This document shows positions 13,830-51,790 of a stretch of DNA of 64,000 nucleotides, piece after piece. The stretch comes from a virus: positions 1 through 64,000 of IMG/VR virus record IMGVR_UViG_3300031143_000003. One strand, written 5' to 3'. The notes beneath the pieces were generated by a model that saw only the letters and a program-made list of their open reading frames with translations, did not search any database and had not been told where the DNA came from. The stretch's first letter is position 1. Every line of letters begins with the position of its first letter. The position numbers were made by a program, and so were the translations under genes.

Positions 13830-14339
13830 CTATGATGCGTCGAAATCATCAGACCAAGTTAGTTTTACTTTTGACTTTGATAGTGCCTTAATTGCCTTAT
13901 CTAGTTTTGCATCATTTGCTACATTTAGATCAAGATCATATCCTAGCAACGACTTTAGTGTTTTTTCAACGTCTGGTCGAGATGCAGTTTTACCATCAAA
14001 CTTTGTCTTATAATATTTACCACGATCTGTGAATACGATATCAATATGCTTGACTTCGTTTATTGATTCAAACATGTCACTCTTACCACGACCCATGTAT
14101 ACATTACGTGCAACCGATTTATCATCGATGAACAGTCTGCCTTGTACTTCGTCATATTTCCAATGGGCTATCTTTGTGCCCTTCTTATATCCAACGTATA
14201 TCCCCTTAGCTTGCTTGATAATGTACTTATCATTCAACTTTAGGTAATTCTTTGCAAAGTTTGTCCAATTTTGGCCTACTATATCTTCGTAATCCTGTAG
14301 TAGTCCACCTTCATTTAATATATTACGTAATTTAATCAT
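13830..14339 (-). CDS. Putative capsid-targeted protein, 169 residues
   Basis: It begins MIKLRNILNEGG, matching the T4-type targeting/cleavage pattern (short hydrophobic-basic leader then (L/I)xE followed by a small residue). A strong ribosome site AAAGGACTTAAAAG precedes the ATG. The body is basic and beta-rich in the centre, with a helical Lys-rich end. No known domain. Packed 6 bases before the 371-residue gene. Its upstream 60 bases are a duplicated remnant of the transpeptidase gene end. Confidence 0.65.
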   Translation of the reverse strand: MIKLRNILNEGGLLQDYEDIVGQNWTNFAKNYLKLNDKYIIKQAKGIYVGYKKGTKIAHWKYDEVQGRLFIDDKSVARNVYMGRGKSDMFESINEVKHIDIVFTDRGKYYKTKFDGKTASRPDVEKTLKSLLGYDLDLNVANDAKLDKAIKALSKSKVKLTWSDDFDAS

Positions 14340-14397
14340 CTTTTAAGTCCTTTGATTCTAATAATGTATATGAAAAGCTATTACCCATACTATTTTG
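14332..14397 (-). pseudogene. Duplicated C-terminal remnant of the L,D-transpeptidase-like gene
   Basis: Read on the minus strand this piece encodes SMGNSFSYTLLESKDLKDD and a stop, almost identical to the true end of the gene at 14772-15386 (WGNSFSYTLLESKDLQDD). The nucleotide match continues across the overlapping ATGATTAA into the targeting leader of the next gene. It is a fossil of a duplication or recombination event and has no start of its own. Confidence 0.8.
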
Positions 14398-14779
14398 CCT
14401 TTTTATCTATATATGGTAATATTTTACTATCCCATAAATCAGCTGATTTGCTAGTTGTACCTGCTTCAACTACTATACTTAATATAAGACTTGATGCCTT
14501 TGCAAATCCGCTACCCATCCCAAATGTTTTACCACCTGTTATAGCTTTTGCTCCCACATGCCATTTGATATATTCATCAACGGTTGTTGGATTTTTAGCT
14601 TTTATTAGATATACAGCTACTTCTTTAGCTACATTCCATTCCTCAGGTTTGAAGTATTTCTTAGCTTGACTGATCTCTCTAGCATATTCTTTCATATATC
14701 TTTTAAAATATTTGGCAGGGATTGGATGTTTACCTATATCCACTGATGCTTCTGCTATAATGTTTGTTAATTTAATCAT
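14390..14779 (-). CDS. Putative capsid-targeted protein, 129 residues
   Basis: It begins MIKLTNIIAEAS, a near-perfect T4-style capsid-targeting leader with predicted cleavage after IAE. The ribosome site AAAGGATCTACAGG lies inside the end of the transpeptidase-like gene, which it overlaps by 8 bases. The body is helical and basic, with a conserved-looking GGKTFGMGSG loop. No family recognised. It appears to have been inserted between the two copies of a duplicated junction. Confidence 0.65.
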   Translation of the reverse strand: MIKLTNIIAEASVDIGKHPIPAKYFKRYMKEYAREISQAKKYFKPEEWNVAKEVAVYLIKAKNPTTVDEYIKWHVGAKAITGGKTFGMGSGFAKASSLILSIVVEAGTTSKSADLWDSKILPYIDKKAK

Positions 14780-15386
14780 CCTGTAGATCCTTTGATTCTA
14801 ACAATGTGTATGAGAAACTGTTTCCCCATATCGATTTTGCTTTGTGACATATTGTCATTAGGAATTCGAAATCATTGTAATTTGCTACAACTTGGCATCC
14901 TGCTGACCATTTGTCGATTTGAGATGATGTTACACCTGGTTTACCAGTTGCTCTATGTATATTTATACCAAATATGCCTTCATCGACATTATCTAAACTA
15001 ATATCATATATATCATCTAAATTGTCATCGCGATATACTCGTACTGGCTTTGTTTGTCCTAACGCCTCGTATTTACCTTGATGTAATCTAATTTTATGCG
15101 AACCTCTATATTGTCCAGGCTTAAGTATCGCTACGCCATCTGGATTCAATAGATTATTAACCCAATGTGTGCCTGGATCAGTCGTACAATCAAATTCATG
15201 ATAATGCCAATCACCATACTCGTTCTTATATGACAATGTTAATATGTCATCGAATTTGTTTGTGACAGCTCCATTTGTATTTGAATTGCGAATGCCGATT
15301 ATATTGACGTCATAATTATCACTTGTGAAATACTTATATCCCTTATGTGACATTGTGCGTTCTAATATATCCCTAGAGTAATTCAT
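14772..15386 (-). CDS. L,D-transpeptidase-like protein, probable peptidoglycan enzyme
   Basis: 204 residues with NIHRATGKPGVTSSQIDKW followed by SAGCQV at about 145-170. This matches the catalytic H-x(n)-S-x-G-C of YkuD-type L,D-transpeptidases (usually SHGC), so Cys is the likely nucleophile. No signal peptide, so a holin would be needed to reach the cell wall, and a holin-like gene follows within 20 bases on its upstream side. I infer a lysis role, cutting or blocking peptide cross-links. Its end is duplicated at 14332-14397. Confidence 0.7.
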   Translation of the reverse strand: MNYSRDILERTMSHKGYKYFTSDNYDVNIIGIRNSNTNGAVTNKFDDILTLSYKNEYGDWHYHEFDCTTDPGTHWVNNLLNPDGVAILKPGQYRGSHKIRLHQGKYEALGQTKPVRVYRDDNLDDIYDISLDNVDEGIFGINIHRATGKPGVTSSQIDKWSAGCQVVANYNDFEFLMTICHKAKSIWGNSFSYTLLESKDLQDD

Positions 15387-15403: not shown

Positions 15404-15628
15404 TTATTTGCGAGAGGCAAATTTTTCTAATCCAGATATTCCAAAACAACCCAATACTACCATCGTGAATGAGTTATATATTGCCTCGTTGATTACCAAA
15501 TCTTTGCCCATTGTGCCAGTAACAACGTCTGCAATCATTACTAATATCATTACTAAGAATGCACAGAATCCAATTATTGATTTCTCATTGTATTCATTGT
15601 CATCTTTAAATATTTCCTTAAAGCTCAT
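15404..15628 (-). CDS. Holin-like two-segment membrane protein
   Basis: 74 residues from ATG at 15628. The longer frame is less likely because TTTGGAGAAAAATT is a good ribosome site for this ATG. A charged N-terminus is followed by two hydrophobic segments (about 18-40 and 52-68) and a basic end (EKFASRK). Size, topology and position next to the putative peptidoglycan enzyme fit a holin. Holins are diverse in sequence, so this is a functional inference. Confidence 0.65.
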   Translation of the reverse strand: MSFKEIFKDDNEYNEKSIIGFCAFLVMILVMIADVVTGTMGKDLVINEAIYNSFTMVVLGCFGISGLEKFASRK

Positions 15629-15653
15629 AATTTTTCTCCAAATCTTTGACATA

Positions 15654-16178: not shown

Positions 16179-16520
16179 TTAAAATGCTTGCATGATTATT
16201 TCATCAATAGATTCCTGTACTTCCTGCTTGGTTGCCTCCATCGTCATCATTATATTTGCTTGAAAGCGTTTTACCTCTTCGCCATTATTGAAGATAACCA
16301 GCGTTGGCACAACCACTATCTTGTATTCCTTTGACCATCTTGAGTCTGCTGCGATATCGACTCTATCGGTATCACAATCAGATAGCTTTTCTAACCATAT
16401 GACAGTATTTGCAATATTGAAACTTGCATTGAACTCTACTACATGTAAACCGTCTGGGAAATCCTGTCCTTGACTAACTGAAGTTATGAACAACATAATT
16501 ATTAATACGATACTCCTCAT
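16179..16520 (-). CDS. Exported thioredoxin-fold protein lacking CxxC
   Basis: 113 residues. A signal peptide (hydrophobic 4-15, cleavage near SQG/Q at 18) precedes a thioredoxin-like fold. VVVPTLVIFNNGEEV has the cis-Pro loop and following strand of thioredoxins, but the CxxC active site is replaced (FNASFNIANTVIW) and only one Cys remains. It cannot be a normal dithiol oxidoreductase. It would act in the periplasm, perhaps as a binding or decoy protein. AAGGAGATCAT precedes the ATG. First of three neighbouring genes encoding envelope proteins. Confidence 0.65.
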   Translation of the reverse strand: MRSIVLIIMLFITSVSQGQDFPDGLHVVEFNASFNIANTVIWLEKLSDCDTDRVDIAADSRWSKEYKIVVVPTLVIFNNGEEVKRFQANIMMTMEATKQEVQESIDEIIMQAF

Positions 16521-16529
16521 ATGATCTCC

Positions 16530-16814
16530 TTACTTTAGCTCATCAATCTTATCTTCTATGCGTCGCATATCTTCCTTCATTTCTGAAACATCTTGTTGCG
16601 TTGTCATAATGGTTTGTCGAATCAATTGATCCTTCATATCGTATTCCATACGTGTTATTTCTGGATCCAATGGTTCTGGCAATTGACGTGCTTCGTCTAT
16701 GTCTGCTTGCAATGCAAACCACATACCAACAATAGTAAATATCGCTACTGCAATACCTGCTAGAGTCTTAATGCTTACATTGACATTTGTATCTTCATTT
16801 AGTTCTTTTGCCAT
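16530..16814 (-). CDS. Single-pass membrane protein with coiled coil, 94 residues
   Basis: A Thr/Asn-rich N-terminus, one transmembrane segment (about 18-36), then a charged coiled coil to the end (EMKEDMRRIEDKIDELK). The topology resembles an inner-membrane spanin subunit or a small phage membrane anchor, but no lipoprotein partner was found nearby. The ribosome site GGGAATAGATC precedes the ATG. Confidence 0.6.
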   Translation of the reverse strand: MAKELNEDTNVNVSIKTLAGIAVAIFTIVGMWFALQADIDEARQLPEPLDPEITRMEYDMKDQLIRQTIMTTQQDVSEMKEDMRRIEDKIDELK

Positions 16815-16850: not shown

Positions 16851-17891
16851 TCAAAATATTACGTAGTTAATCCCAATACTAAAATTATGCCATTTTCGAT
16901 TCCAATACTTATTGTACGTACCTTCTGCGAATACTCCTAATTTCTTGTTGAACTTATAACCGAAAATGAGGCCCATAGAATAATCCATCCATTGTGCGTC
17001 ATTATTAAATTTATGATAACTATACTCTCCGCCAGTATCAAGGTGATATGGCATTAGATTGCCCCAAGAATGGAACCAAAATGTTTTTGTATAATGATAG
17101 AAGTCGTAACCAATGACTGCCGAATATTCTATTTTATCTGAGAGCTTATTTCTTTCTTGTTCAGCATATTCAGCTAGTATTGATGGTATCACAACCTCTT
17201 CCCATATCTCTATGTTGGTTGCAACGACTTCACCACTAGGATTTGTGTATATTTGATTAGCTACGTCTACACCATATCCCATCTCTTCGATCGCCAAGTA
17301 ATTATAGTGTATGTTACCATTTGGCAATATGCAATCTGATAGTGGATCGTATCCATATGGCTCAGACAATCGCTGAACTGTTCCAATATTGATGGAAAGC
17401 TTATCGCCCAATTGATGTCTATATCGTTCAGATGCCTCAAAATACTGAATGTCTGCAAATCCATCCTGTAGGTATTCAACCTTAGTTATCCATTTTTCGC
17501 TAATATATCTAACGAAGTGATGTTGATCTAAGTAATTGTCTCCAAATGTTCGCTTATAGTCACCTTCAAATAGGAATTCGAAACCCTTGATCTTTCCAAG
17601 TGTTGCTGCATCTGAATATGATTTCTCTGTACCATCATAGAACGTGTTTGCTCTATTTTCGTAACCAAATCTTGCTATCTTTCTAACACCAAACGTGATT
17701 GCAAAATCAAATGGTGTGTTAATTACACCAGTACTCAGTCCATCCGTAATCGAGTACGTATCTACATCAGATATCGACGTTCCACCGTTGACTGCCCCAT
17801 AAAATGTTGCAAACTTAAAGGCCTTTTTTATATTTAATTGACCATATGTTACCATTGGTAAGAATAGCAATATCAGTATTAATTTCTTCAT
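16851..17891 (-). CDS. Outer-membrane beta-barrel protein
   Basis: 346 residues. Signal peptide MKKLILILLFLPMVTYG with cleavage before Q18. The mature part has alternating polar/hydrophobic strands rich in Tyr, Phe and Trp, and it ends NYVIF, the terminal aromatic expected for BAM-inserted barrels. Such proteins are typical of Bacteroidota hosts and rare in phages. It lies 9 bases after the T9SS-substrate gene and may be co-expressed. Possible roles are receptor masking, superinfection exclusion or uptake, all inferred. Confidence 0.7.
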   Translation of the reverse strand: MKKLILILLFLPMVTYGQLNIKKAFKFATFYGAVNGGTSISDVDTYSITDGLSTGVINTPFDFAITFGVRKIARFGYENRANTFYDGTEKSYSDAATLGKIKGFEFLFEGDYKRTFGDNYLDQHHFVRYISEKWITKVEYLQDGFADIQYFEASERYRHQLGDKLSINIGTVQRLSEPYGYDPLSDCILPNGNIHYNYLAIEEMGYGVDVANQIYTNPSGEVVATNIEIWEEVVIPSILAEYAEQERNKLSDKIEYSAVIGYDFYHYTKTFWFHSWGNLMPYHLDTGGEYSYHKFNNDAQWMDYSMGLIFGYKFNKKLGVFAEGTYNKYWNRKWHNFSIGINYVIF

Positions 17892-17900
17892 AATTTACCT

Positions 17901-20774
17901 TTAGTATTTTAATACTTTGCGATTGGTTATTGTATCGTTGTATCTAATCTGAACATTGTATATGCCAGTAGGATATTTGGTCATATCGATATCAGTCTTG
18001 CCTTCGCTAACTAACGTACCTATCATGGTATATACTTTAATGTCTAAATCTAGATCTAGTGTCGTTGTTATGTATAAATATCCGTTTGTTGGATTAGGGT
18101 ATATCAATATTGAAGAATCTCTTGAAATTAATTCATCTACGTCAACTGGCCATCCTAATGTACAGTAGTCATGTTGAGATTGACAATACGAATCCCATGC
18201 ATTAGTACAACAATATTCATCTACTGCAATAACCCATGCATAACATGGATCATTTAGCCAATATGGATTACCAGGACCATCAATGCATCCCGCATCATAT
18301 AGACAACTTCCATCATCCGTATTATAGTTCTCATTATAGTTAAATGCGTTTGTATCCATGCAACCTTCTTCTGTCGGTATACATGCATCAGTGTCAACGT
18401 TTGCCAACGAATCGAAGTTTAATGCATAAGGATCCATGCATCCGTATATTGGAGTAATACAATTGAAGTTTTCAGTGTTTGCATCTACATCATAATTTAG
18501 TGCAGCAGGATCAGTGCAACCAAATATAAATGGTATACACGATTCATTGTCTAGGTTGGCAAATTCATTGTAATTGAATGCAGATTGATCCGTACAGCCA
18601 AAAAGTATTTCTATACATGTACCGTCTTCTAATGTTGCAGTTATGTCATAATTAAGGGCTGTAATATCCATGCATCCTAATATTATGGGTACACATGATT
18701 CATTGTTGGTATTTGCCATTGGATTATAGTTTAATGCAGTAGCATCTGTACAGCCATAGACAAATGGTATACAGTTATCTATTGATGTGTTTGCATCTTC
18801 GTCGTAATTCCAAGAACTAGGATCTGTGCATCCATATATTTTAGGAATGCATGATTCGTCATCTACATTTGCATCAATATTGAAATTGAATGCGAATGGA
18901 TTCATGCAACCTAACGTTGGATATATACAGCTACCGTTTTCTGTGTTTGCTGTCTCGTCATAATTTAATGCTAAATCATCAATGCAACCAAAATATACAC
19001 AAGACTCATTATCATTAATATTTGCTAATACATTATAGTTCCAAGCTTCTGATTCCATGCAACCTATGAACCAAGGCATACAAGAACCATCGTCTGTATT
19101 TGCTGGTTCTGCTGCATAGTAACCGAACATCGAAGGATCTGTGCATCCATATTTTATAGCGACACAGGGTATTATTTCTGGATCATACGTGTTTGCATTT
19201 GGATTATAGTTAAACATTTCTTGACCTAACCAATTGAATTGGTCTGTGCAGCCAAAAATAACGCTTTCACATAGATCACCACATTGTGGTATACCAATGT
19301 ACTTGTCCCATAATGGTGCCTGAAATGATTGGAGTGCGCCTAGGCCATTGTTTGCAAACGGATTAGTACCTCCACTTATCAACGTGCCATCATCACTAAA
19401 TATGGTAAATGAATTATGCATCGTTTGGAATTCAACTTCAGCAATAGGTTGTTGTTCGCCTTTTACTTCAAAGTAATAGACATATATTGGTTTTCCAGCG
19501 TCTAGCTCGAGTTGATATGATTGAGTTGATATGCCTGGACCCAATGTATATATTTCAGATAGGTTGCCTTGTGATATGGCTAGATATGATTCACCCCAAC
19601 CATCTGATGCATCATCTTCTATCGTAAGAGTATACTCACATATAGAAACGATTTCGTTTGTATTAGCTGTTTCATCATAATTGAACGCAGATATATCAGT
19701 ACAGCCATATTGTTTTAACGTTTGACATGAGCCATACAACATAATATCTACAAGTGGATCATACTCAACATATTCAGAATCAGTGCAACCTTCTAGCAAC
19801 GGAATTGCACATGATGGTAGATATATGATACCGGTTTGTGCATCAAGGCCAAAATTAGCTGAGTCCAGTGTCCATATTAGATCCATTCCACCACCACATG
19901 GGTCTGTGTCTCCCAATATTTCAAAATTACCATCTGCTCCATTATTATATAATGATCCAGCTAATCCATCGCCGTATGAGTCACTAAGAACAAGCTCAAC
20001 GCCTGTAACTGGGACACATATATCATATGATATTGTTGTATTGGATTGATTGAATGTATACGACTGGGCTGATACTGCGTAGATTACTTCGCTATTTGAA
20101 ATGTCTGTTAAGATCCAGCTAGTTTCACTAGGATATTGGTCTAGTGTAACTAACAATATCATTTTTGATGTACCATCTGTGCAACCTATGCCGACACATG
20201 AATTGTCTTCTAATGTAGCCCAAGGATTGAAGTTTGGTGCATCTGGATTGGTACATCCAAGTATGATCAAGTTACCACATAACGTATCGTCATTTATTGT
20301 TGCATCTGGATTGAAGTTGTCATAATTATTATCCATGCAACCTATGATAATGACATTTTCAATTGGTGGAGCACAAGGTGCTATATCAAGAGTGTCGATT
20401 AATGAGAATCCGAAATCTGCAGATACATACATAATAGTGTCTTGGCAATCATTTTGTATCAATAGCCATCCGTCTGTTCCACCCCATTGTGAAGCACCTA
20501 ATCCATCGCCATATGAATCAAATATTGATAAAACACTATTACCGTGTAATAACAATGTGTCACTGTACAATGTGTTTGGTTGCAGGTTGGGATCATTTTG
20601 GAATATGACCGACGAGTCACTTTGTTGCACAATTTGCAATGATGTTTCTACTGGATAGTCGTCTGTTAATAGTTGAATATTGATCCAACTATCTTGTGCA
20701 TTAGATGCCGTTGCAAACAGAAATAGTATTCCAATTAGGAATACTCTTCTGAACTGTTTTATTTTTTGAACCAT
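17901..20774 (-). CDS. Secreted repeat protein with type IX secretion sorting domain
   Basis: 957 residues. Signal peptide with cleavage near SNA/Q (26-27). Two N-terminal domains contain SYGDGLG-type loops. About 17 imperfect repeats follow, of the type GC(T/M)D..A.NY...AN..D.SC, each with two Cys. The last ~75 residues (IYPNPTNGYLYI ... YPTGIYNVQI ... KVLK) form a type A T9SS C-terminal domain that directs export and surface anchoring in Bacteroidota. This repeat type occurs in marine Bacteroidota surface proteins (general knowledge), so host origin is likely. I predict display on, or release from, the infected cell. Ribosome site AGGAAACTATT. Confidence 0.88.
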   Translation of the reverse strand: MVQKIKQFRRVFLIGILFLFATASNAQDSWINIQLLTDDYPVETSLQIVQQSDSSVIFQNDPNLQPNTLYSDTLLLHGNSVLSIFDSYGDGLGASQWGGTDGWLLIQNDCQDTIMYVSADFGFSLIDTLDIAPCAPPIENVIIIGCMDNNYDNFNPDATINDDTLCGNLIILGCTNPDAPNFNPWATLEDNSCVGIGCTDGTSKMILLVTLDQYPSETSWILTDISNSEVIYAVSAQSYTFNQSNTTISYDICVPVTGVELVLSDSYGDGLAGSLYNNGADGNFEILGDTDPCGGGMDLIWTLDSANFGLDAQTGIIYLPSCAIPLLEGCTDSEYVEYDPLVDIMLYGSCQTLKQYGCTDISAFNYDETANTNEIVSICEYTLTIEDDASDGWGESYLAISQGNLSEIYTLGPGISTQSYQLELDAGKPIYVYYFEVKGEQQPIAEVEFQTMHNSFTIFSDDGTLISGGTNPFANNGLGALQSFQAPLWDKYIGIPQCGDLCESVIFGCTDQFNWLGQEMFNYNPNANTYDPEIIPCVAIKYGCTDPSMFGYYAAEPANTDDGSCMPWFIGCMESEAWNYNVLANINDNESCVYFGCIDDLALNYDETANTENGSCIYPTLGCMNPFAFNFNIDANVDDESCIPKIYGCTDPSSWNYDEDANTSIDNCIPFVYGCTDATALNYNPMANTNNESCVPIILGCMDITALNYDITATLEDGTCIEILFGCTDQSAFNYNEFANLDNESCIPFIFGCTDPAALNYDVDANTENFNCITPIYGCMDPYALNFDSLANVDTDACIPTEEGCMDTNAFNYNENYNTDDGSCLYDAGCIDGPGNPYWLNDPCYAWVIAVDEYCCTNAWDSYCQSQHDYCTLGWPVDVDELISRDSSILIYPNPTNGYLYITTTLDLDLDIKVYTMIGTLVSEGKTDIDMTKYPTGIYNVQIRYNDTITNRKVLKY
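18280..20345 (-). repeat. GC(T/M)D cysteine repeat array inside the secreted protein gene
   Basis: About 17 coding repeats of roughly 28-40 residues. The dense run of at least 12 regular units is at about 18300-19260. Protein-level similarity is clear while the DNA is diverged, so this is an old expansion rather than a recent tandem duplication. Confidence 0.8.
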
Positions 20775-20783
20775 AATAGTTTC

Positions 20784-21092
20784 CTATTTTATATTTTTCT
20801 TAATCCAACCATTAACATATTTCACTAATTCAGATTGAGCTGGTGAGATGTCTTCTTTCTCGGTCATAGGACCAGTCTTCCATGCTAACCATGCTTTCTT
20901 TATTAACGCTAGACCATCGTCTATGTCGTGCATACCTTCAACATACTCTTCAGTTATTGGAGCTGATTCTTCTTGTACTGATTGTTTAGCTTTGAATGCT
21001 TTTTGTACACTGTCTAGTGTAGGTAGAGGTGATCCAAATTGTCTGTTTGCATATCCTGGTGCATGTTCTGATAGTATTTTCTTTAATTTCAT
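20784..21092 (-). CDS. Putative capsid-targeted protein, 102 residues
   Basis: It begins MKLKKILSEHAPG, nearly identical to the leader at 15737-16117. Further (L/I/V)xE-like sites follow (SVQEES, PITEEY). The C-terminal half is helical with a Trp-rich stretch (KKAWLAWKTG). The ribosome site AGGAAAAACAAG precedes the ATG. Role unknown; the leader suggests packaging in the head. Confidence 0.6.
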   Translation of the reverse strand: MKLKKILSEHAPGYANRQFGSPLPTLDSVQKAFKAKQSVQEESAPITEEYVEGMHDIDDGLALIKKAWLAWKTGPMTEKEDISPAQSELVKYVNGWIKKNIK

Positions 21093-34537: not shown

Positions 34538-36166
<1,629 letters not shown>

Positions 36167-50086: not shown

Positions 50087-51790
50087 TTATTTTGTTGCGT
50101 TTGCAAATACTTTACCTAATTTTGGATCATCTAACACCGATTGGACTATTAATTTTTTGTCTAGTAAATATTGTAGCATACTTGATTGACTATTTCCAGC
50201 TAATCTATTTTCATCTGAATTACCAACTTTCCTTGCGTTTTCCCATTCGGTTCGATATTCTTCGCGTCTTTCTGGATTTGTTGACATAGATATTAGGAAT
50301 CCACGATAGATATTGTCAGATGATAACTTGTTACTACCTCTTCCACTGCGCTTAAGTAATCCTCGTCCTAATCCTAGACCAATCAATATTGTTTTTCCTA
50401 GGCCAGACTTAAGTGATGCTATTTTCTTTATGTCAACCTTACTATCGACAGATTGCTTAAACGTGTCTCTAGCGTTTGTGTGGGCTTTATCATCTAAATC
50501 AAACATTTCCGATAATATGTCTGGAGTGGTTCCAGCTGCTAAGCTTTCTCCATCTATTAGTATGGATGCACGTTGTTGTGTATGTGTTGCTACAACGTTA
50601 ACGCCTTCATATGCCTTATCACTAGTTTTGTATGTGTCTTCACTATCACCAGATCTAGGTTCAACATGTTGCTTTATGAAGTCAACGATATTGCTATTAC
50701 TTTTCTTCTGATTGATATTGGTTGCACAAATTATAATATTGTCGCCATGTTCCCTATCCATATAATCTGATTTGGATGGGGTGCCATTGTCAGTGTTATC
50801 AAATGCAACAACGTGTTCTAGGTCAATGTTGTTTAGGTCAAGTGGTAGTCCAGTGTATGGGTCCTTTCCGCCTTGTTCAAGTATCGACCGCCAAACAAAT
50901 CTACCCCTATCACTAGATGGTGGATTACCACGTTTTACAGATAATTTACCATTTTCATCCTTGGCTATGGATTTGTCGTTTTTGTTGGATGTTATACTAC
51001 CATCTTCTCTAATGTATCCTAGGAAGTGTAGTCCTCTACCCTTATCGCCTGTTCCACCCTTACCAACCAATGAATTTCTGAATTCTTCTGGTAACAGTTT
51101 GTATGAATCGTTCACGAACTTGTCTGAAACTGTTATTGGCTTTGATGCGTCTACAAATTTCTTAATGTGTTTTGGTGATCCATCGCCATATGCTTTTATG
51201 AGGTAATCGGCATTATCAGTCATTGATTTGACGTCCAAATATCCTAATCTATTCTTTCCAATACCTGCATTTGGACGACCCTCATATAACAATCCCTTTG
51301 TAAATATACCGTTTGCTGAATTCCTAGTTTCAATTGGTACATTTGACATAAGCGTGTCTATTTCACGTAATCTAGATTGTGTCTCGTCGCTATCAGCTGT
51401 GATTGCAGCTTTTTGCTTATCGGTCAAATTGGCATTGTTGTCGCCAATTAGCTTAGTTTGTATTTTTTTCGTGGTCTTGCTCTTTGTTGGCTTATCCGGC
51501 TTAGCATCATTCGACTTTTCTACTTCTCCAGCTGTTGTGTCTTTGCCGGATATAGTTACCTTTGTACTATCTCGCATTTTACCTTTCAGTTTCGATTTAT
51601 ATTTTGCAAAATCCGCAGAATTATTGAATCGTAGTTCGAATATGAATATATCGACTATTTCCTTTGGTATGCCCTCGGCCAATAACACTTGCTCGAGCAT
51701 TAATACGTGTTGTGGATCATTGAAGTTTGGTGTTCCATCAGATAGTTGATGGCTCAGCTCGTTCAGTATTTTGTCTATGTCTAGTTTCAT
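50087..51790 (-). CDS. Large protein with central HNH domain
   Basis: 567 residues. N-terminal ~60 residues helical, then a Lys/Thr-rich linker (about 65-115). A Cas9-like HNH module in the middle has DPYTGLPLDLNNIDLEHVV, EHGDNIIICATNINQKK, and Asp-Leu-Glu-His as catalytic core. The C-terminal part is helical with a glycine-rich segment (GLGKTILIGLGLGRG). A class C motif is just upstream, so it may be late and virion-associated rather than a homing nuclease. Confidence 0.72.
   Translation of the reverse strand: MKLDIDKILNELSHQLSDGTPNFNDPQHVLMLEQVLLAEGIPKEIVDIFIFELRFNNSADFAKYKSKLKGKMRDSTKVTISGKDTTAGEVEKSNDAKPDKPTKSKTTKKIQTKLIGDNNANLTDKQKAAITADSDETQSRLREIDTLMSNVPIETRNSANGIFTKGLLYEGRPNAGIGKNRLGYLDVKSMTDNADYLIKAYGDGSPKHIKKFVDASKPITVSDKFVNDSYKLLPEEFRNSLVGKGGTGDKGRGLHFLGYIREDGSITSNKNDKSIAKDENGKLSVKRGNPPSSDRGRFVWRSILEQGGKDPYTGLPLDLNNIDLEHVVAFDNTDNGTPSKSDYMDREHGDNIIICATNINQKKSNSNIVDFIKQHVEPRSGDSEDTYKTSDKAYEGVNVVATHTQQRASILIDGESLAAGTTPDILSEMFDLDDKAHTNARDTFKQSVDSKVDIKKIASLKSGLGKTILIGLGLGRGLLKRSGRGSNKLSSDNIYRGFLISMSTNPERREEYRTEWENARKVGNSDENRLAGNSQSSMLQYLLDKKLIVQSVLDDPKLGKVFANATK

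Follow-up and report, generated by a model that had tools for sequence, protein, structure and literature searches.

A phage-encoded outer-membrane beta-barrel that travels with two envelope proteins beside lysis genes

Introduction

Why would a phage carry a gene for an outer-membrane (OM) beta-barrel? The question is posed by one gene, here called OMP, in the 64,000-nucleotide stretch of DNA that was analysed (the window), part of a virus record of 147,286 bases in which OMP is present as a single copy. The record is that of a contractile-tailed phage, with a tail sheath, a phage-type DNA polymerase, a replicative helicase, ribonucleotide reductase and GroEL. (The GroEL-type chaperonin lies at window positions 34538–36163; phrog_5725, E 5.7e-156.) An initial annotation of the locus had suggested that the barrel might block the phage receptor, anchor a neighboring substrate of the type IX secretion system (T9SS), or replace a host porin.

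Spanins are seen as the usual final step in the lysis of Gram-negative hosts (PMC6139136), and Bacteroidetes phages have been reported to use unimolecular spanins only (PMC12596118). In the survey by Kongari et al., no spanin could be identified in about 13% of phages, Croceibacter phages P2559S and P2559Y among them, and these authors suggested that "an OMP could act as an o-spanin" (PMC6139136). Since the barrel described here is nearly always found with two other envelope proteins beside lysis genes, it is probably part of an unrecognised OM-breaking device.

The barrel

The barrel gene and its notable parts are as follows:

16851–17891, minus strand: OMP, phage OM beta-barrel, 346 aa from the ATG, 12 predicted strands
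17841–17891, minus strand: OMP signal peptide, residues 1–17, Gln at +1; kept among homologues
17586–17678, minus strand: OMP segment 72–102, between strands 2 and 3; conserved, low model confidence
17136–17363, minus strand: OMP loop 177–252, with a helix at 227–249; the sole long loop on the predicted outer face

The reading frame is stop-free, as had been described, and judged by its relatives in at least 592 IMG/VR contigs (50–70% identity and beyond) it is a genuine gene rather than a chance one. BFVD also holds several phage-annotated OM barrels, and the earlier remark that phages rarely carry such proteins was therefore too strong. OMP gave no Pfam, NCBIfam or significant PHROG match, and no PDB sequence relative even when searched as a profile. 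Its N-terminus, MKKLILILLFLPMVTYG followed by Q, is a Sec signal peptide of the Bacteroidota "Q-rule" type, and an [ASGC]Q cleavage-like motif recurs in 159 of 193 homologues. The structure modelling that the initial annotation had proposed as a check returned a 12-strand OM barrel, both from 71 diverse aligned sequences (AlphaFold pLDDT 83.0, pTM 0.74) and from 33 (pLDDT 71.7). Together with the Sec signal and an F/W/Y content of 18%, this bears out the signal peptide and strand-rich aromatic body noted at the outset. The terminal Phe noted with them is present in OMP itself but is no family rule: the last residue among the 193 homologues is L in 71, F in 67 and R in 32, with F or Y in 72 and L, R, I or K in most of the others.

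When the two OMP models were searched with Foldseek, the top PDB matches were all transmembrane beta-barrels, but the query-normalised TM-scores were low (0.16–0.38); the matches thus support the fold class without singling out a family. A signal peptide and a predicted even-stranded barrel are what OM beta-barrels generally have. There was no OM phospholipase-type barrel among the top matches. An unnamed viral protein of 342 aa in BFVD, A0A516LKJ4, is a structural homologue (Foldseek E 1.5e-24, TM 0.66, 23% identity to OMP), and its entry is unannotated.

If strand 1 begins in the periplasm, as is assumed here, segment 72–102 would be periplasmic or plug-like, and loop 177–252 would be the sole long one on the outer face. 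Entropy is 1.41 in the segment, versus 1.80 in the loop. Charged residues are conserved along the strands, which suggests a filled barrel interior. Could the barrel nevertheless be a porin or open channel through which nutrients or ions pass in the infected cell, as an auxiliary metabolic function? The fold is of the same class as porins and channels, but a filled interior is at odds with this, as are the association with lysis genes rather than metabolism and the lack of a chromosomal relative, and the proposal is very improbable. No chromosomal homologue of OMP was found in 396 Flavobacteriales or 395 Bacteroidota genomes, two phage-like contigs aside, an absence on which capture of a host porin was rejected, and with which the suggested porin replacement is not favored.

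Distribution of the family

Three barrel clades were compared: G1, to which the window belongs, and G2 and G3, whose barrels are 29–37% identical to the window OMP and whose phages have different neighboring genes. A tblastn search of INPHARED (50,697 phage records) with barrels of all three clades gave no OMP match, hence no cultured relative. The gene next to OMP designated CC (see below) gave only a weak match there, in Phage WC36-2, beside an M15 endolysin. Tail-sheath contigs, considered as an unbiased gauge of prevalence, mostly do not extend as far as the cassette, some 45 kb away.

From the T9SS signal and the Q-rule signal peptides, the hosts are probably Bacteroidota. Six GTDB "genome" matches to OMP were considered as hosts and rejected, being either implausible (Woesearchaeota, Maricaulis and Nitrosopelagicus MAGs) or a virus contig; the GTDB contigs that were opened carry phage genes. 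The loci concerned (L053–L058, from MAGs labelled Nitrosopelagicus, Maricaulis, Woesearchaeota and Flavobacteriales) are apparently mis-binned phage contigs, and L054 is the same as the IMG/VR contig of L018 (43,296 bp; coordinates agree). A link to cyanophage OM barrels, hinted at by BFVD and by weak PHROG matches of CC, was likewise dropped, as P-SSM4 had no significant match to any of OMP, CC or TRX, the third protein of the set.

A three-protein envelope module

Two small genes follow OMP in the window:

16530–16814, minus strand: CC, 94 aa; one N-terminal transmembrane (TM) segment followed by a helical, charged, coiled-coil-like domain; layout resembling that of an i-spanin
16179–16520, minus strand: TRX, 113 aa; secreted, thioredoxin-like, without CxxC

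The loci compared are metagenome assemblies, partly redundant, biased toward those found with barrel or CC queries, and not independent lineages; with the counts read in that light, TRX was near OMP in 118 of the 118 loci whose sequence extends 4 kb to either side of the barrel (the full-flank set) and CC in 116, always on the barrel's strand. The reciprocal search from CC gave 80 loci, all 80 with TRX and 74 with OMP. At least one CC locus without OMP, L337, is explained by truncation, the barrel lying further along the same contig (L046). Gene order is permuted (T9SS substrate–OMP–CC–TRX, OMP–CC–TRX–T9SS substrate, CC–TRX–OMP), and the set stays together. OMP, CC and TRX thus make up a near-obligate three-protein envelope module.

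The hydrophobic segment of CC, near residue 20 (KD 2.44), is conserved in its alignment (A5), and the topology is presumably N-in. The tail, charged and helical, has weak matches to coiled-coil families, and its periplasmic part would be about 57 residues long. TRX scores 25 bits against TIGR01068, below the cut-off, and its homologue in L178 scores 30.2 bits against PF00085, above the cut-off. It is unlikely to be a redox enzyme, since CxxC is found in none of 182 TRX sequences. A C-terminal Phe is present in 169 of the 182, although TRX is not a barrel; this ending is possibly a docking peptide, and a thioredoxin core ending in Phe would fit an adaptor role.

Association with lysis genes

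Downstream of OMP, the order in the window is CC, TRX, HOL, LDT:

15404–15652, minus strand: HOL, 82 aa with two hydrophobic segments; a candidate holin, judged from its layout and position only
14772–15386, minus strand: LDT, 204 aa; endolysin candidate (phrog_33083 "endolysin", E 1.1e-16; phrog_3000, E 2.1e-34)

HOL gave no significant PHROG or Pfam match, and is found near OMP in 52 G1 loci. In G2 and G3, the commonest further neighbor (c0) is a Peptidase_M15_3 endolysin (60.6 bits; phrog_894, E 3.9e-32), followed by a GTA_holin_3TM holin (c1; 25.6 bits against a cut-off of 24.8; phrog_3427, E 4.3e-20). Within full-flank loci, an endolysin lies no more than 4 kb from the barrel in 44/46 of G2, 9/9 of G3 and 25/63 of G1; the corresponding figures are 29/46, 9/9 and 36/63 for a holin, and 45/46, 9/9 and 42/63 for any recognised lysis gene. 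Thirteen of the G1 full-flank loci have no recognised lysis family anywhere in the locus. Of 43 adjacent pairs of OMP and M15 genes, 23 have a 4-base overlap.

The same triad therefore partners two unrelated endolysin families (M15 and LDT) and two holin types, while the other flanking genes vary by phage type (head–tail connector genes, a large virion-like protein, replication genes). Endolysin and holin families and other neighbors are exchanged and the triad stays, as one would expect if it were functionally linked to lysis. Might the link be one of timing? A sensor made of barrel, TRX and CC (with the T9SS protein in G1) could relay a signal from outside or from the OM to the holin, delaying or triggering lysis, and both the operon linkage to holin and endolysin and a chain of parts reaching from the surface to the inner membrane would suit it. 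No homologous sensor is known, however, and because the holins that accompany the triad are unrelated, any specific contact with them would need to have re-evolved. This leaves a lysis sensor with a rather small probability.

Superinfection exclusion is somewhat more probable than such a sensor, though still unlikely: the barrel would displace, block or imitate a host OM receptor, and its place among the lysis genes would signify late expression only. Precedents exist in the OM morons of phages (lambda Lom of the Lom/Ail family, the Lc porin of PA-2), which are OM barrels made in the infected host from phage genes. The barrel is OM-targeted as they are, and in G1 its surface T9SS partner could shield the cell. 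OMP differs from these morons in having no Pfam match to them, and in its CC and TRX partners and lysis-operon place. Masking leaves unexplained an inner-membrane CC, a periplasmic TRX and the 4-base coupling to the endolysin; moreover, most of the predicted outer loops are tiny, while the inward segment is well conserved. The receptor block raised by the initial annotation is accordingly not favored, as the near-obligate linkage to CC and TRX and the position in an endolysin/holin operon would have no explanation.

Genomic context thus inclines, if narrowly, toward a lysis complex of three proteins, OMP, TRX and CC, in which the barrel would be the OM subunit and which would take on the work of a spanin while not being one itself. 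The three proteins would be made late in infection, together with holin and endolysin. The N-terminal TM helix of CC would fix it in the inner membrane, leaving the helical tail in the periplasm, and the barrel would be inserted in the OM with its conserved segment facing inward, while a redox-dead TRX would bridge the two. Once the endolysin has stripped the peptidoglycan, the complex would collapse or be released, disrupting the OM as Rz/Rz1 spanins do elsewhere. Topology, complex formation, action at lysis and OM disruption are all inferred.

The T9SS substrate next door

The gene directly upstream of OMP encodes a secreted protein:

17901–20774, minus strand: T9SS substrate, 957 aa, with signal peptide and type A sorting domain; 9-bp gap to OMP
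17904–18104, minus strand: its type A C-terminal sorting domain, residues 891–957 (PF18962, TIGR04183)

The sorting domain scores above the cut-offs (PF18962, 35.7 versus 27 bits; TIGR04183, 31.1 versus 23 bits), and with the modelled barrel this supports the earlier description, which placed an OM beta-barrel next to a T9SS substrate. The protein contains about a dozen Cys repeats of some 36 residues (GCTD..A.NYN..AN...C) that belong to no Pfam family, and its homologues beside the barrel in G1 phages vary in length.

Does the barrel serve this neighbor? PorP/SprF proteins act as partners and anchors of type B substrates (PMC9143113, PMC12618676), and OMP could be an anchor or shuttle in the same way, as SprF is for SprB. 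Like PorP/SprF, it is an OM barrel of about 310–350 aa encoded beside a T9SS substrate in a Bacteroidota setting; the substrate is immediately upstream in 74 of 119 assessable loci, with a 4-base overlap in 41 of the 74. The partner's sorting domain is, however, type A (TIGR04183) and not type B, and OMP is phage-only and has no profile relation to PorP/SprF (PF11751): hhalign aligned just 24 signal-peptide columns, and hmmscan gave no match. The partner is also dispensable. The sorting domain was found in 98 loci, all of them G1, and the pairing is therefore a clade-specific addition; as the distant clades G2 and G3 keep barrel, CC and TRX without any T9SS substrate, anchoring, proposed at the outset, cannot be the core role of the family. 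As an account of the barrel it is improbable, more so than the lysis sensor. The G1 substrate, often translationally coupled to the barrel, is probably an added surface function, and receptor blocking and T9SS anchoring are best regarded as weaker rivals to the lysis complex, or as roles added to it.

Cryophage is a known case of a phage that encodes T9SS cargo (PMC7468147). In the available portion of that account, phage genes likewise bear type A sorting domains, the cargo comprises enzymes and a PA14 protein, and no barrel partner or lysis linkage is described.

Relation to spanins

How does the triad compare with known spanins? Two-component spanins (lambda Rz/Rz1, T4 PseT.3/PseT.2; PMC6139136) likewise consist of a helical inner-membrane protein with an N-terminal TM and an OM partner, and are likewise often found beside holin and endolysin. 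CC has the i-spanin layout of one N-terminal TM with the rest periplasmic, and the linkage to holin and endolysin is strong in G2 and G3 and partial in G1. The OM partner, in contrast, is a 12-strand barrel and not an OM lipoprotein with a lipobox: most barrels have a type I signal, a lipobox-like one being found in 12/72 G1, 0/50 G2 and 0/11 G3 loci. (In G1, examples are the OMPs of L002, L006, L015 and L016; their signal peptides suggest a lipidated barrel.) The triad further differs in its thioredoxin-like third protein and in that the genes are not nested. Spanin cysteines are common (PMC6139136), whereas periplasmic Cys residues that could form a disulfide are absent from CC (alignment A5), none is conserved in the OMP alignment, and TRX has no CxxC. 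Despite the spanin-like layout and position, the triad was not filed as a spanin because the lipoprotein and cysteine features are lacking. To unimolecular spanins (T1 gp11) it is alike in the proposed outcome, OM disruption, but it consists of three proteins and lacks a lipoprotein bearing a C-terminal TM.

Nor is a conventional o-spanin or u-spanin usually at hand, because lipoprotein reading frames nearby are scarce: outside the triad, same-strand ones within 3 kb occur in 4/72 G1, 12/50 G2 and 0/11 G3 loci. A Tyr/Pro/Ser-rich lipoprotein (cluster c9; motif VLAVT.EGDTLKLPI) follows the endolysin in about 22 G2 loci (L153, L163, L178, L193 and others), and could be an o-spanin-like protein in those phages. 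In the present record (G000), positions 84059–84439 encode a 126-aa protein with a signal peptide, a helix/coil region and a C-terminal TM, and at 84059–84726 (L238:59–726) this adjoins a 95-aa basic protein with an N-terminal TM, possibly making a second envelope or spanin-like pair. As a canonical spanin elsewhere in the record the 84059–84439 candidate was rejected, having no match in 17 of 18 relatives.

The proposed lysis complex has its weak points. The periplasmic part of CC is short to reach across the periplasm and has none of the cysteines that are common in spanins, and endolysin linkage in G1 is partial (25 of 63 full loci). The lipoprotein in 12 of 50 G2 loci could pair with CC as an ordinary o-spanin, and the 84059–84439 protein could be another spanin-like protein in this phage.

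A bolder proposal, offered tentatively and rather less likely to be right than the lysis complex as such, is that the barrel, an adaptor with a thioredoxin fold but no CxxC, and a helical tether in the inner membrane constitute a new class of OM lysis machine, with the first barrel-type "o-spanin", taking the place of spanins in a large group of marine phages, nearly all of them uncultured and probably phages of Bacteroidota. The triad is a concrete and widespread candidate answer to how spanin-less phages open the OM. If true, the lysis genes of many marine phages would have to be re-annotated, and the ways of opening the OM would come to include one based on a barrel. Should the details prove wrong, there is still an envelope module, near-obligate and present in hundreds of phage contigs, whose function has to be explained.

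Another feature of the genome

Several otherwise unrelated proteins of this phage begin with similar N-terminal peptides (MIKLRNILNE, MIKLTNIIAEA, MKLKKILSE, MKLGNWIAE), which are reminiscent of the capsid-targeting peptides of T4. There are 7 matches, against 2.3 expected from shuffles. Proteins with such a start are encoded at:

13830–14339, window: protein with capsid-targeting-like peptide
14390–14779, window: the same
20784–21092, window: the same
50087–51790, window: the same
85821–88801, record: the same
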